From Parvicella tangerina (GTDB taxonomy: Bacteria; Bacteroidota; Bacteroidia; Flavobacteriales_D; Parvicellaceae): a stretch of 64,000 nt of DNA. The DNA lies in assembly GCF_907165195.1 (NCBI RefSeq), contig NZ_OU015584.1:3110978-3174977 (forward strand). Reading direction: 5' to 3'. A model generated the notes under the pieces. The model was not told the DNA's origin and ran no database searches. It was given only the letters and a program-made list of their open reading frames with translations. Both the position numbers and the translations under genes were made by a program. Position 1 is the stretch's first letter. Each line of letters opens with the position of its first letter. Of the stretch, positions 47,900 to 53,740 are shown piece after piece.

Positions 47900-49006
47900 T
47901 TATAACCCAATGATGGTCATCACCTCATTACATATATCTTCAGCCGCATTCGGTTTCCCCAATGCAGCTATATTCTTACTTAATTCGTTCATTTTTGCCT
48001 CATCTTGAAGCAAAGCCAATATCTCAGGCACTAATTTCGCCTGAGAATCAACGTCTTTCACAAGGAGTGCCGCTGATTTATCAACAAGCGATTTTGCATT
48101 TTTCGTCTGATGATCCTCTGCAACATTAGGTGAAGGCACCAGCACGCAAGGCTTTTGCACTAAACAGAGCTCACTTACCGAGAGTGCTCCAGCCCTACTA
48201 ATTACGACATCCGCTGCTGCATAAGCTAAATCCATTCTTTTGATGAAGGCCATCGGCTTTATGTTTTTATCTCCATGTGCATCAGCCTTTTTTGCCATTT
48301 CCTCTTCGTAGATCTTTCCGGTCTGCCAAATCATTTGAACTCCAGCATCTGTTAACTTCTGAAGGCCTTCTGCTATACTATCGTTTAGTGTTCTGGCGCC
48401 CAATGATCCACCAATTAATAAGATCGTTTTCTTATTGGGGTCTAACCCAAAGTGTTCGAGTGCTTCTTCCCTTTTTCCGTCAAGATCCAAAATATCCTTC
48501 CGGACTGGATTCCCTGTCATTACGATCTTTTCCCTTGGAAAAAAGTGCTCCATATTATCATAAGCCACACAAATCTTACTGGCTTTTTTTGCAAGAATCT
48601 TATTGGTTAAACCAGCATAAGAATTCTGTTCCTGCAGTAAAGTGGGTACTCCCAATTTTCCAGACTGAATCAAAGTTGGCCCACTTGCATAACCACCAAC
48701 TCCTATTGCTATCATTGGATTAAATTCTTTTATAATCTTCTTAGCAGCCATCTTACTCTTTAGATACTTGAAAGGGAAATTCCAGTTTTTCCAAATCTTC
48801 TTTCGTTGTATTCCAACAATATCCAACCCTTTAATCTCGAATCCAGCAGCCGGAACTTTCTCCATTTCCATTTTACCATTTGCTCCAACAAACAGAATAG
48901 CCGCACCTGGATACCTTTCTTTGATTGTGTTCGCAATTGCTAATGCAGGGAATATATGCCCTCCAGTACCTCCACCAGATATGATCACTCTCGGTTGCTT
49001 ACTCAT
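47900..49006 (-). CDS. murG: UDP-N-acetylglucosamine-N-acetylmuramyl-pyrophosphoryl-undecaprenol transferase
   Basis: The 368-residue GT-B glycosyltransferase converts lipid I to lipid II. The G-loop GGTGGHIFPAL is at 12-22, the second glycine loop is GGSLGARTLNDS, and the sugar-binding region has EDHQTKNA. It overlaps ftsW by 4 bp. Confidence 0.96.
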   Translation of the reverse strand: MSKQPRVIISGGGTGGHIFPALAIANTIKERYPGAAILFVGANGKMEMEKVPAAGFEIKGLDIVGIQRKKIWKNWNFPFKYLKSKMAAKKIIKEFNPMIAIGVGGYASGPTLIQSGKLGVPTLLQEQNSYAGLTNKILAKKASKICVAYDNMEHFFPREKIVMTGNPVRKDILDLDGKREEALEHFGLDPNKKTILLIGGSLGARTLNDSIAEGLQKLTDAGVQMIWQTGKIYEEEMAKKADAHGDKNIKPMAFIKRMDLAYAAADVVISRAGALSVSELCLVQKPCVLVPSPNVAEDHQTKNAKSLVDKSAALLVKDVDSQAKLVPEILALLQDEAKMNELSKNIAALGKPNAAEDICNEVMTIIGL

Positions 49007-50154
49007 GCTATTTGTTTTTCATTTGATTCGACACTCTTACTCACATTCAATAGTATTCCAATAGAGACACAGGTAAAAAGAATGGATGTTCCTCCCATAC
49101 TGATCAATGGTAACGGTTGCCCCGTTACCGGAAGCAGGTTAACACCCACCCCCATGTTAATCATAGCCTGCAAAACCAGTAAAAAACTTAGTCCAAAGGC
49201 AACATAAGCCCCAAAACTGCTTTGAGCCTTTAAAGCGACTCGTATACTCCTAAAAAAGAAAGTTAAATAGAGGATCAACAATATAAAAGCTCCTATCAGC
49301 GACCCAAACTCCTCTATAATCGTAGCAAATACAAAATCCGATTGAGCAGAATAGGTATCGTTTTTGACATTTCCTCTACCTGGCCCCTTACCGATCAATC
49401 CTCCATTCACAACTGCAGTTACTGCCTGCATGGCCTGATAATTATCTATTTTTGTTTTTTCATCTTCTTCTTCAGCCTCACCCCCAAAAAAGCTAACTAA
49501 CCTAGTTTCCCAAGTTGTTGCTCTTGGTAGTATACCGGTAAAGTGATTCACCATTAACAGAAACATGAACAACACAATTGCACCACCCACCACAGCGAGC
49601 AAATGTTTTATTTGTACTCCACCAACAAAGAGTAAAATAAAGCTAGCTAATCCAAGCATAAATGCAGTAGAAAAATCAGCGGGTAAAATCAACACACAGA
49701 TCCCGGCAATTGGAATCATTAACGGCAATACGCCTTCTTTGAAATCGTGCAATTTGTCATGTTTAATAACGAGCAGCCTTGCCAAGTATAAGATCAGCAC
49801 AATCTTCGCAAGGTCTGAGGGCTGAAACCCCATAATCCATCTTTGGGCAGAGTTAATGTTTCTACCGAAAAGCAATGTCATGAGCAATAATATTCCTGCT
49901 ACCCATATCCCCATTTGAGAAATACGGGAAAAGTATTTGAATTTAAAATGCTGCAAGTAGATCATAACGACAAACCCAACAACCAAGGTAGCTACATGCT
50001 TAAACCAAAATGGAGTAGCATTCCCTTCAGTAAGTCGATATGCCATATTGGAACTAGCACTCAACGCAATTACCGTTGAAGCCAAGGTCAGCAGAATTAC
50101 AACTGTCCAAATGGTCTTATCGCCTTTTAGGTATTTATCTATTATTTCTTGCAT
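49003..50154 (-). CDS. ftsW: FtsW/RodA/SpoVE family glycan polymerase
   Basis: The 383-residue SEDS protein has about ten helices. The conserved AQRWIMGFQPSDLAKI segment, the KNDTYSAQSDFVFATI catalytic-loop region and the C-terminal signature PVTGQPLPLISMGGTSIL are present. In a dcw cluster next to murG it is FtsW, the septal glycosyltransferase partner of FtsI. Its upstream gap holds hairpin element D. Confidence 0.93.
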   Translation of the reverse strand: MQEIIDKYLKGDKTIWTVVILLTLASTVIALSASSNMAYRLTEGNATPFWFKHVATLVVGFVVMIYLQHFKFKYFSRISQMGIWVAGILLLMTLLFGRNINSAQRWIMGFQPSDLAKIVLILYLARLLVIKHDKLHDFKEGVLPLMIPIAGICVLILPADFSTAFMLGLASFILLFVGGVQIKHLLAVVGGAIVLFMFLLMVNHFTGILPRATTWETRLVSFFGGEAEEEDEKTKIDNYQAMQAVTAVVNGGLIGKGPGRGNVKNDTYSAQSDFVFATIIEEFGSLIGAFILLILYLTFFFRSIRVALKAQSSFGAYVAFGLSFLLVLQAMINMGVGVNLLPVTGQPLPLISMGGTSILFTCVSIGILLNVSKSVESNEKQIA

Positions 50155-50164
50155 CCTATTTCTT

Positions 50165-50244
50165 GGACACTTGATATTTGACGCTGGACGCTAGACGGAC
50201 ATCTTAAGGAGGCGTCTAGAGTCAAAAGTCTTCAATCAAGCGTC
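50165..50244. repeat. Hairpin element D, between ftsW and the orphan MurD-like gene
   Basis: This 80-bp element aligns without gaps to element E (50748-50827), with 65 of 80 bases identical by eye. It contains CTAGACG/CGTCTAG arms around a 15-nt loop. Its end overlaps the stop codon of the orphan gene, so the last residues LDA derive from the element. Confidence 0.75.
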
Positions 50245-50733
50245 TAATTTTTCAACCAGTGTTCTGAAATGTTCTCCTCTTTCTCTGTAGTTCTCATATA
50301 ATGCAAAGCTTGATGTCCCTGGTGAGAACAACACTACATCATCTCCCTCTGCCCATTCACTGGCAGTTTCTACAGCTTCTTCTAAAGTTGATTTATGCGC
50401 ATAACCGTCTACCATGTTCGCAAAGGAGTACTTTAGGTTTGTCTCATATGCTCCGAAACAGATGATCTGTTTCACTTTATACTTTACCAGTTTCTCAAGC
50501 ATACTGTAAGGGAGTTCTACTTCAGAACTTGCTGCGATCCATATCACTGGCTTCTCCATTAACTCAAGTGAGTAATAGGTAGAATCCAGGTCAGTAGCTT
50601 TGGAATCATTGATCCATTCTACCCCGTTGATCTCGGCAACCGACTCCAACCGGTGTGCGATATCCGCAAAAAGGCTCATACTCTTCTTCCGAGCCTCCAG
50701 CATTTGGTCTTTTAATGACTTTGTTTTATTCAT
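50236..50733 (-). CDS. Stand-alone MurD C-terminal domain paralogue
   Basis: The 165-residue protein resembles only the C-terminal domain of MurD, encoded just upstream. HRLE at 27-30 and NDSKATD at 42-48 match HRLE and NDSKATN of MurD, and SPGTSSFALYENYRERG near residue 137 matches SPACASFDLFENYEERG. Key ligase features are missing: no P-loop domain, GGxDKG is replaced by ASSEVE, and the Asp of ASFD is Ala. So a catalytic ligase is unlikely. It is an intact frame with ATG 50733. It may bind MurD or a precursor, or be a partial duplication that is still translated. Confidence 0.8.
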   Translation of the reverse strand: MNKTKSLKDQMLEARKKSMSLFADIAHRLESVAEINGVEWINDSKATDLDSTYYSLELMEKPVIWIAASSEVELPYSMLEKLVKYKVKQIICFGAYETNLKYSFANMVDGYAHKSTLEEAVETASEWAEGDDVVLFSPGTSSFALYENYRERGEHFRTLVEKLDA

Positions 50734-50747
50734 TGTGTTCAATTATA

Positions 50748-50827
50748 GGACGCTAGATGTTTGACTCTGGACGCTGGACGAACAACCTAAGAAGGTATCT
50801 AGCGTCAATAGTCTCTAATCAAGCGTC
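50748..50827. repeat. Hairpin element E, between the orphan gene and murD
   Basis: This 80-bp copy is homologous to D. GACGCTAGAT at 50749-50758 and ATCTAGCGTC at 50797-50806 are perfect 10-bp inverted arms, with an inner ACCT-AAGA-AGGT hairpin. It follows the murD stop by a few bases. Confidence 0.75.
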
Positions 50828-50833
50828 AAAATT

Positions 50834-52177
50834 TTATAATGATCTAACCGCTCTTTTGAACTTATTACCTCTCTCTTCGTAATTCTCAAAAAGATCAAAA
50901 CTTGCGCAAGCAGGAGACAATAATACCGTGTATCCTTTCTTGGCTAATCTGTAACCTAGTCCAACTGCTTCTTCAGCTGAAGTCGCGTCCCAGATGTTCT
51001 CTACCAAGCCCTCGAATGCTTTGTGCAGTTTTGAGTTATCTTTTCCCAGACACACGATTCCTTCTACCCTATCCTTCACTAATCCTTCAAGCATGGTGTA
51101 GTCGTTTCCTTTGTCTACACCACCTGCGATCCAGATCGTAGGCTTTTGCATACTTTCGAGAGCATACCAGGTAGAGTTTACATTCGTAGCTTTTGAATCG
51201 TTAATAAAATCGATTCCGTGCACTGATGCTACGAACTCCAATCTGTGTTCTACATTTTGGAAATCAGATAATGATTCTCTGATAATTTCCTTTCTAATTT
51301 CTAATACTCTACTAGCGATACTTGACGCCATAGAATTGTAAGCGTTGTGCTTACCTTGCTGTGCTAATTCGTGAATAGACATGTTTGTTTGTTGGTTGTT
51401 AATGTTAGTTTGTATTTGTTTGTTTGTTGTTACCCAAGCTCCTTCAGTCAGCTCTACCTCGTGAGAGAAAGCGTACATCCGTTGCTTGAAATTTCGTTTG
51501 TTGTTTTCTGCTTGTATAGTGGGGTCATCGTAGTTGTAGATGAACACATCATCAGGACCTTGATTCTGAACGATTCTGAATTTACTATCCACGTAATTCT
51601 GGAATTTGTAATCGTATCGATCCAAATGGTCTGGTGTGATATTCAGAAGTATTGCAATGTCTGCTTTAAAATCAAACATTCCATCCAGTTGAAAACTACT
51701 GAGTTCAAGAACATAGTAGTCATAATCACCTTCGGCAACGAGTGCAGCAAAGCTTTTACCAACGTTTCCACCAACGGCCACGTTGAGTCCAGCTTGTGAA
51801 AGGATGTGATACAACATCATGGTTGTAGTCGTTTTACCATTACTTCCTGTGATGCAAATCTTCTTAGCAGTCGGTTTCACATATCTTCCTGCGAATTCGA
51901 TTTCTGAAATAACCGGAATACCCTTCTCGCGCAACTCAACGATCATTGGCACTGTATCCGGTATCCCCGGACTTTTGATTACCTCATCAGCTTTGAAGAT
52001 CTCTTCGTGCGTATGCACTCCTTCTTCCCACTTTATGTCATTATTTAAAAGAACTTCTCTGTGTTTGTCTTTGAGTTTCCCCCTATCAGACACCCACACA
52101 TCAAACCCCTCTTTCTTTGCCAGAATAGCAGCTCCGACTCCACTTTCGCCCGCTCCTAGTATTGCTATTCGTCTCAT
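50834..52177 (-). CDS. murD: UDP-N-acetylmuramoylalanine-D-glutamate ligase
   Basis: The 447-residue full-length MurD adds D-Glu to UDP-MurNAc-L-Ala. N-terminal RRIAILGAGESGVG, P-loop GSNGKTTT at 111-118, HRLE and NDSKATN in the third domain, GGVDKGNDY and SPACASFDLFENYEERG are all intact. Element E follows the gene and element C precedes it. The next gene is its truncated paralogue. Confidence 0.96.
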   Translation of the reverse strand: MRRIAILGAGESGVGAAILAKKEGFDVWVSDRGKLKDKHREVLLNNDIKWEEGVHTHEEIFKADEVIKSPGIPDTVPMIVELREKGIPVISEIEFAGRYVKPTAKKICITGSNGKTTTTMMLYHILSQAGLNVAVGGNVGKSFAALVAEGDYDYYVLELSSFQLDGMFDFKADIAILLNITPDHLDRYDYKFQNYVDSKFRIVQNQGPDDVFIYNYDDPTIQAENNKRNFKQRMYAFSHEVELTEGAWVTTNKQIQTNINNQQTNMSIHELAQQGKHNAYNSMASSIASRVLEIRKEIIRESLSDFQNVEHRLEFVASVHGIDFINDSKATNVNSTWYALESMQKPTIWIAGGVDKGNDYTMLEGLVKDRVEGIVCLGKDNSKLHKAFEGLVENIWDATSAEEAVGLGYRLAKKGYTVLLSPACASFDLFENYEERGNKFKRAVRSL

Positions 52178-52303: not shown

Positions 52304-53740
52304 TTATCTCAATTTCAGTGTCACGATAGATAGTACCGCCAGTATGATCCCGACAATCCAGAACCTGGCAACTATCTTCGCTTCATGCATTCCTTTCTTT
52401 TGGTAATGATGGTGCAAAGGCGCCATCAAGAACACTCTCTTTCCTTCTCCTGTTTTCTTCTTTGTGTATTTGAAATAAGCCACCTGCATCATCACGGATA
52501 CGTTCTCGATCAAGAACACTCCGCAGATCACTGGGATCAATAGTTCCTTTCTTATTGCAATCGCAAACGTGGCGATGATTCCACCCAAGGCTAGCGAACC
52601 TGTATCTCCCATGAACACTTTTGCTGGGTATGAGTTATACCACAAGAACCCGATAGTTGCTCCAATAAATGAGGAGATATAGATCACGAGCTCACCCGCA
52701 TCTGGGATGTACATGATGTTTAGGTAATCTGCGAAAATGGCATTACCAGACAGGTAGGCGAAAATTGCTAACGTGGTACCAATAATCGCACTTGTACCGG
52801 TTGCTAAGCCATCCAATCCATCCGTAAGGTTAGCCCCATTCGAAACGGCTGTGACAATAATGATGACTAAGGGAATAAAGATCAACCAGGTAAGATCTCC
52901 AAGTCCAAACCACTCGTAATCGAATTCGTTATTCTTAATGAATGGAATGGTTGTTTTATGAGACTTGTGCTCATTGTACTTGTAGATTCCTTCATCGTCT
53001 TTGTAAAATGTCACACCATCTATTTCTGTCTTACCTTCTATCATTAACTCTAACATTCCATTAGAATTCATAAACTCAAGCACATATCCATTATCCACCT
53101 CATCAGCTATTTCTTCACCATCGATTATCACTGGAGCGCTCGGTAGGTCTCCTTCTTGCAAAATCATTGGAAGCTCATTACCGGAACCATCCTCCAAAGC
53201 GCTTAATGGCGGATAGATTGTCCAGCCCTTCTGACCAACCCCTTCTTTCACAACGTACTCCTTCTCCTTCACCACTACATCATCATGGAAATACAACAGC
53301 GAGCCTACAATTATTCCAACACCAACTTGCCCAACGACTTTAAACTTCCCTGCCAGACCTTTTTTATTCTTCTTAAACACCTTGATGTAATCATCCAGGA
53401 AACCGATCATTCCCAACCAAACCGTAGCGATCAGCATGGTGATGGTATAGATATTATCCAGCTTTGCAAATAACAATGTTGGCACCAGAATCGACCCTAA
53501 AATGATCAGACCACCCATCGTTGGCGTTCCTGCTTTTTCATTTTGTCCTTCCAGACCTAGGTCTCGAATAGACTCACCAACCTGTAGTCTTTGGAGCAAC
53601 CGAATCAAACGACCTCCCATCACCATTGAGATCAACAGCGAAACGATGATCGCCATACCCGCTCGAAAGGAGATATATTGAAATAATCCCGCACCTGGGA
53701 CATTTTGCTCTTGTAGATATTCGAATAAGTGGTAAAGCAT
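52304..53740 (-). CDS. mraY: Phospho-N-acetylmuramoyl-pentapeptide-transferase with a large extra-membrane insertion
   Basis: The 478-residue enzyme makes lipid I. The catalytic Asp pair (DDYIK at 116-120), NLTDGLDG at 304-311, [11 protein letters not shown] and [10 protein letters not shown] are all present, so the enzyme should be active. It is about 118 residues longer than E. coli MraY (360). The extra part lies at about 151-275 between two helices: a charged, soluble segment with [17 protein letters not shown] and EMIEGKTEI-type sequence, most likely periplasmic. Longer MraY occurs in Bacteroidota. It shares one base with murE upstream. Confidence 0.94.

Follow-up and report, generated by a model that had tools for sequence, protein, structure and literature searches.

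Few bacterial gene clusters have been studied as thoroughly as the dcw cluster. One of the enzymes that it encodes, MurD, has its UDP-MurNAc site in the N-terminal domain, and the Mur-ligase-derived protein MurT retains the central ATP-binding domain and is active. Residues K348, T321, S415 and F422 of MurD contact the D-Glu part of ligands or their mimics (PMC3527612), complexes of the Mur ligases with MurG and possibly FtsW have been proposed (PMC4929429), and MurD is bound and inhibited by MigC, a COG0523 GTPase of Acinetobacter baumannii (PMC12208494).

We analysed a window of 64,000 nucleotides from Parvicella tangerina, in which the dcw cluster lies on the minus strand as mraZ ... murE, mraY, murD, SA, ftsW, murG, murC, ftsQ, ftsA and ftsZ, where SA (stand-alone) is the name used here for the open reading frame at 50236-50733. 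Gene names other than murD were assigned by sequence and by homology between loci: mraY (52304..53740, minus strand) and murG (47900..49006, minus strand) stand in the same order in relatives, and ftsW (49003..50154, minus strand), the constant downstream neighbour of SA, was recognised by cross-locus homology and by that adjacency. The murD gene (50834..52177, minus strand) is full length with complete active-site motifs and matches TIGR01087 with 403 bits across its whole length. The SA frame is unbroken, running on the minus strand from an ATG at 50733 to a stop at 50236 and encoding 165 amino acids, as the preliminary description had stated. A TTG at 50742 in the same frame would give 168 residues, but we preferred the ATG because an M-N-K-T-K-like N-terminus is common to many relatives. 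The feature was defined from the ORF list, Pfam/NCBIfam matches, same-slot orthologues, AlphaFold2, Foldseek and dN/dS.

SA belongs to the Mur_ligase_C domain family: the Pfam model (PF02875) matches it with 32.2 bits against a gathering cut-off of 28.4, and at E<=0.01 the model recognises 54 of 62 SA members. SA does not qualify as a MurD, since it lacks three defining features. Positions 292-440 of the 441 in TIGR01087 align to it with 129.2 bits, below the curated cut-off of 211.95; the central ATP-binding domain (GxxGKT/S) is absent, with no Mur_ligase_M match and only MurD 292-440 covered; and the D-Glu carboxylate-binding pair Lys348/Ser415 is incomplete, K348 being V and S415 kept. Identity to the C-terminal domain of the adjacent MurD is 43%. 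Residue numbers are those of E. coli MurD and were taken from the PDB alignment. On this numbering SA keeps H301, R302, D317, K319, T321 and S415, carries Y at the F422 position, and has changed K348 to V, G345 to S and D417 to A. The first description of the motifs was thus right: the alignment confirmed that HRLE, NDSKAT and the Ser of ASFD are kept, that the lysine of GGxDKG and the Asp of ASFD are lost, and that no ATP-binding domain is present. With neither a central ATP-binding domain nor K348, SA cannot act as a ligase alone.

In all 27 copies analysed from the host family (f1), K348 is absent and R302, D317, K319, T321 and S415 are unchanged; 8 of these copies keep D417. The family has also gained conserved residues of its own, ETxxKY (85-93%), where MurD has a DNxK-type sequence. 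Outside the host family, 28 of 38 copies retain no more than 4 of the 7 active-site residues, and 11 of the 38 retain 0-2, so that ligand residues are frequently lost while structural ones (the SP, KV and WI motifs and RGxxF) are retained. Ligand binding is therefore unlikely to be the common function, and we infer that a protein-protein role fits better. The earlier reading of SA as a regulatory or decoy domain accordingly stands in part: a catalytically incompetent stand-alone domain has been retained, but D-Glu binding as its conserved function is not supported, K348 being lost in every host-family copy and the other ligand residues in many further families.

AlphaFold2 on 62 SA sequences gave a pLDDT of 88.6 and a pTM of 0.82, with pLDDT 92-98 across most of residues 30-168, and the best PDB matches in Foldseek were all MurD C-terminal domains (E 7e-12), such that SA is predicted to have the Rossmann-like fold of the MurD C-terminal domain. 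Residues 3-23 were modelled as a low-confidence helix equivalent to the end of the MurD central domain. This N-terminal segment retains an LLxAR pattern and is basic, with a mean net charge of +2.5 vs -1.0 in MurD.

A search of 60 related genomes placed SA in 33 of 37 genomes of the host family, including that of P. tangerina itself; counting only the genomes in which at least one of murD and SA turned up, the figure is 33 of 34. Three of the family genomes without it are metagenome-assembled genomes, 57-82% complete, in which neither gene was found; in the other (G027, 720 contigs) only murD was found. Identity falls from 84% and 76% within the genus to about 40% within the family, where the exceptions to an intact gene are one copy with an internal stop (G022) and one short copy (G036). 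In a class-wide draw of 119 genomes from 57 families, with loci followed up, SA was in place in 17 families, and an order-level search added six more (f2, f3, f4, f7, f10 and f11), for a total of 23 families of Bacteroidia. A 24th (f8) is represented by a very diverged copy in the same slot of G053, a 157-residue ORF (L096:1933-2406) recognised by hhalign (E 2.5e-6) and predicted by AlphaFold2 at pLDDT 81 with the same strand and helix order, from an alignment that itself contains SA rows; no SA occupied the slot in the other genomes of that family examined (G043 and G059). Among 44 genomes drawn from the other classes of the phylum, none had a convincing second copy, and one showed a match split over two contigs. 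In almost every family lacking SA, murD and ftsW adjoin directly. As a separate observation, the murD-ftsW slot of G094 (f44) holds a 127-residue ORF (L152:526-906; hhalign probability 5%) that may be a decayed SA. A same-slot orthologue of 84% identity within the genus, together with orthologues across the class, puts SA far beyond chance, and the gene forms a genuine family, confined to the class and missing from many lineages.

SA is also under strong purifying selection, somewhat weaker than that on MurD. By the NG86 method, dN/dS was 0.035-0.195 in the ten pairs with usable dS, and in those ten pairs the MurD C-terminal domain gave 0.016-0.088; for the two same-genus genomes, dS of SA was saturated and dN was 0.11 and 0.16. 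Orthologues with conserved synteny under purifying selection, which the preliminary description had proposed to look for, were thus found, and the outcome was the opposite of the absence from relatives and neutral evolution that it had named as the mark of a decaying pseudogene. A protein that is non-catalytic, yet has been under strong selection since early in the class, is probably a partner or a regulator in cell-wall building.

In an LG+G4 tree of 168 domains, 65 of 72 SA sequences formed one clade, and seven (from f16, f22, f24, f52 and f56) were placed within MurD; a mixture-model tree of 68 rows joined these to the other SA sequences and held 33 of 35 in one clade (support 86/88), the two outside it being long or isolated branches. 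Constraining all SA to one clade gave p=0.50 in an AU test, so a single origin was not rejected. Most SA share a 4-residue deletion before HRLE, VLFSP in place of VLLSP, and Ser in place of Ala in the helix following NDSKAT, and SA resembles its own genome's MurD no more closely than it does other MurDs. From these comparisons, the most likely origin and the simplest account is a single, ancient event within Bacteroidia in which the 3' end of murD was duplicated in tandem; independent origins in each family were rejected because identity to the genome's own MurD is not raised and a single SA clade is not rejected. Two tandem SA paralogs occur in families f2, f3 and f7, the second mostly carrying an N-terminal TIHK[SG]KKS motif.

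Two copies of a 93-nt intergenic repeat made up of GACGCTN heptamer units, 80% identical to each other, flank SA in the window, copy 1 (50160..50252) lying between SA and ftsW and overlapping the last bases of SA, and copy 2 (50743..50835) lying between murD and SA. The repeats were not found at the SA locus of the two same-genus relatives checked, and GACGCTN heptamer arrays also occur at about 2.53 and 2.56 Mb in the genome. A recent duplication in place, as the repeats might suggest, was rejected because they are absent from these relatives and are part of the dispersed arrays; it is also countered by the SA-MurD identity of only 43% and by the grouping of SA orthologues together.

The common arrangement is mraY-murD-[SA]-ftsW-murG, and SA within the cluster adjoins ftsW, the frames often overlapping or nearly touching. 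The link between murD and SA is broken in three lineages, and in each SA is found beside ftsW: in G102 (f52), mraY-murD and SA-ftsW lie at separate mid-contig sites; four Bacteroidales genomes have murD outside the cluster, which reads mraY-SA-ftsW; and in genus g8 of the host family 1.5-2.1 kb separates murD from SA. Because SA remains with ftsW where murD separates, a function on the FtsW side is at least as likely as binding to MurD. A comparison of FtsW alignment columns between families with and without SA yielded nothing that could be told apart from shared descent: the top columns lay slightly above label shuffles, but phylogeny confounds the comparison.

Several features of these loci were recorded in passing. 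The four Bacteroidales genomes are metagenome-assembled (G060-G063; L065, L067, L070 and L071), several of them from ruminants, and their full-length MurD outside the dcw cluster is possibly a displaced or foreign copy. The g8 insert in G010 and G017 (L099:2436-4490 and L098:1915-3515) encodes two lipoprotein-like paralogs with membrane helices and a ...FLQKRKYKKGY... motif. In f24, SA and ftsW are separated by an ORF of ~90 residues that has a single membrane-like stretch (L122:2388-2676, plus strand; L121:1492-1767, minus strand); in f4 a second diverged SA copy is present there. In G106 an extra SA copy outside the cluster (L177:2695-3333) stands beside an aldehyde dehydrogenase gene and not beside ftsW or murD.

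The explanation that we favour builds on the predicted fold, the catalytic loss, the purifying selection, the distribution and the fixed linkage to ftsW, and holds that SA, derived from MurD but without catalysis, serves as a partner protein in the precursor pathway, on its FtsW/MurG side; we give this close to, though somewhat under, an even chance, and the partner role, the partners and the effect are all inferred. The 3' end of murD would have been duplicated once, anciently, and SA retained as a separate non-catalytic protein of the MurD fold, produced together with ftsW and murG. Its old domain surface and basic N-terminal helix would dock one or more Mur ligases and/or the FtsW-MurG membrane machinery, SA possibly serving as a bridge to MurD or another Mur ligase; in the septal pathway, such docking may tie the supply of precursors to the place where they are consumed. 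Against a partner protein of this kind, the host family keeps the nucleotide-side R302, D317, K319, T321 and S415 in 27 of 27 copies, none of which a pure scaffold would need; part of the linkage to ftsW may stem from a common promoter or operon and not from a common function; the relocated extra copy in G106 does not adjoin ftsW; and many families manage without SA. The main rival is inhibition of MurD, with SA as a dedicated regulator that competes with, or caps, the enzyme's own C-terminal domain on the central domain, or that binds elsewhere on MurD and lowers or raises its turnover. We regard this as possible but doubtful, and SA may bind MurD itself. In favour of such a regulator, SA is encoded directly after murD in most genomes, the host-family copies keep the nucleotide-facing HRLE and NDSK[AS]T and lose the D-Glu lysine as a dominant-negative domain might, and MigC offers a precedent in Acinetobacter (PMC12208494). 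Yet the four Bacteroidales keep mraY-SA-ftsW with murD outside the dcw cluster and have lost the ligand residues (NDASSRT), SA is not specifically close to its own genome's MurD, and a free domain would be expected to lose out to a tethered one.

The invariance of the R302, D317, K319, T321 and S415 equivalents in the host family would also suit a ligand sensor, in which SA would signal the precursor level by binding a nucleotide, an amino acid or a UDP-MurNAc precursor, but the depleted active sites of copies in other families, noted above, and the absence of the UDP-MurNAc site from SA make such a sensor unlikely. Far less probable still is a functionless, decaying remnant of the murD duplication. 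SA copies evolve clearly faster than MurD by tree branch lengths, G022 has its internal stop, the G036 copy is short, that of G053 is very diverged, and many families are without a copy; nevertheless dN/dS is far below 1, frames are intact in nearly all genomes, the gene is of class-wide age, a second paralog is conserved in f2, f3 and f7, and the predicted fold is preserved. Purifying selection and distribution refute the remnant at the level of the clade, and for SA itself the dN/dS of 0.035-0.195, the presence in 33 of 34 family genomes and the spread over 23 families rule out a decaying pseudogene.

The preliminary description knew of no protein of this kind, and we likewise found no description of a stand-alone MurD C-terminal domain in the literature searched, which covered few subscription journals; within that literature, SA is an undescribed and conserved extra member of the dcw cluster across many families of one class. 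That it represents a previously undescribed class-wide pseudoenzyme family of Bacteroidia, sometimes with tandem paralogs, that couples the precursor ligases to FtsW/MurG at the septum is a tentative proposal, well short of an even chance. If SA does partner MurD, FtsW or MurG, it would provide a direct genetic handle for asking whether a physical link joins the cytoplasmic Mur ligases to the septal synthase. SA moreover offers a clean example of one enzyme domain retained for a non-catalytic purpose, and its paralogs and losses allow comparison.

Among described systems, MigC (PMC12208494) would be a parallel in its mode of control should SA bind MurD, but it belongs to a protein family unrelated to SA, and MurD binding by SA is putative. 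The MurT-GatD pair is alike in that MurT is a Mur-ligase-derived protein working within a two-protein complex, and differs in that SA has the C-terminal domain only and gives only a weak structural match. In PDB 3mvn, a fragment of Mpl, a Mur ligase C-terminal domain stands alone as SA does, but the title of that entry marks it as one domain from within a larger putative ligase and not as a separate natural gene. The nearest likeness is to the MurD C-terminal domain itself (PF02875, TIGR01087), with which SA shares its fold, the 43% identity to its neighbour's domain and several ligand residues, and from which it differs as a separate protein that has neither the N-terminal nor the central domain, lacks K348 and reaches 129 of 212 bits.
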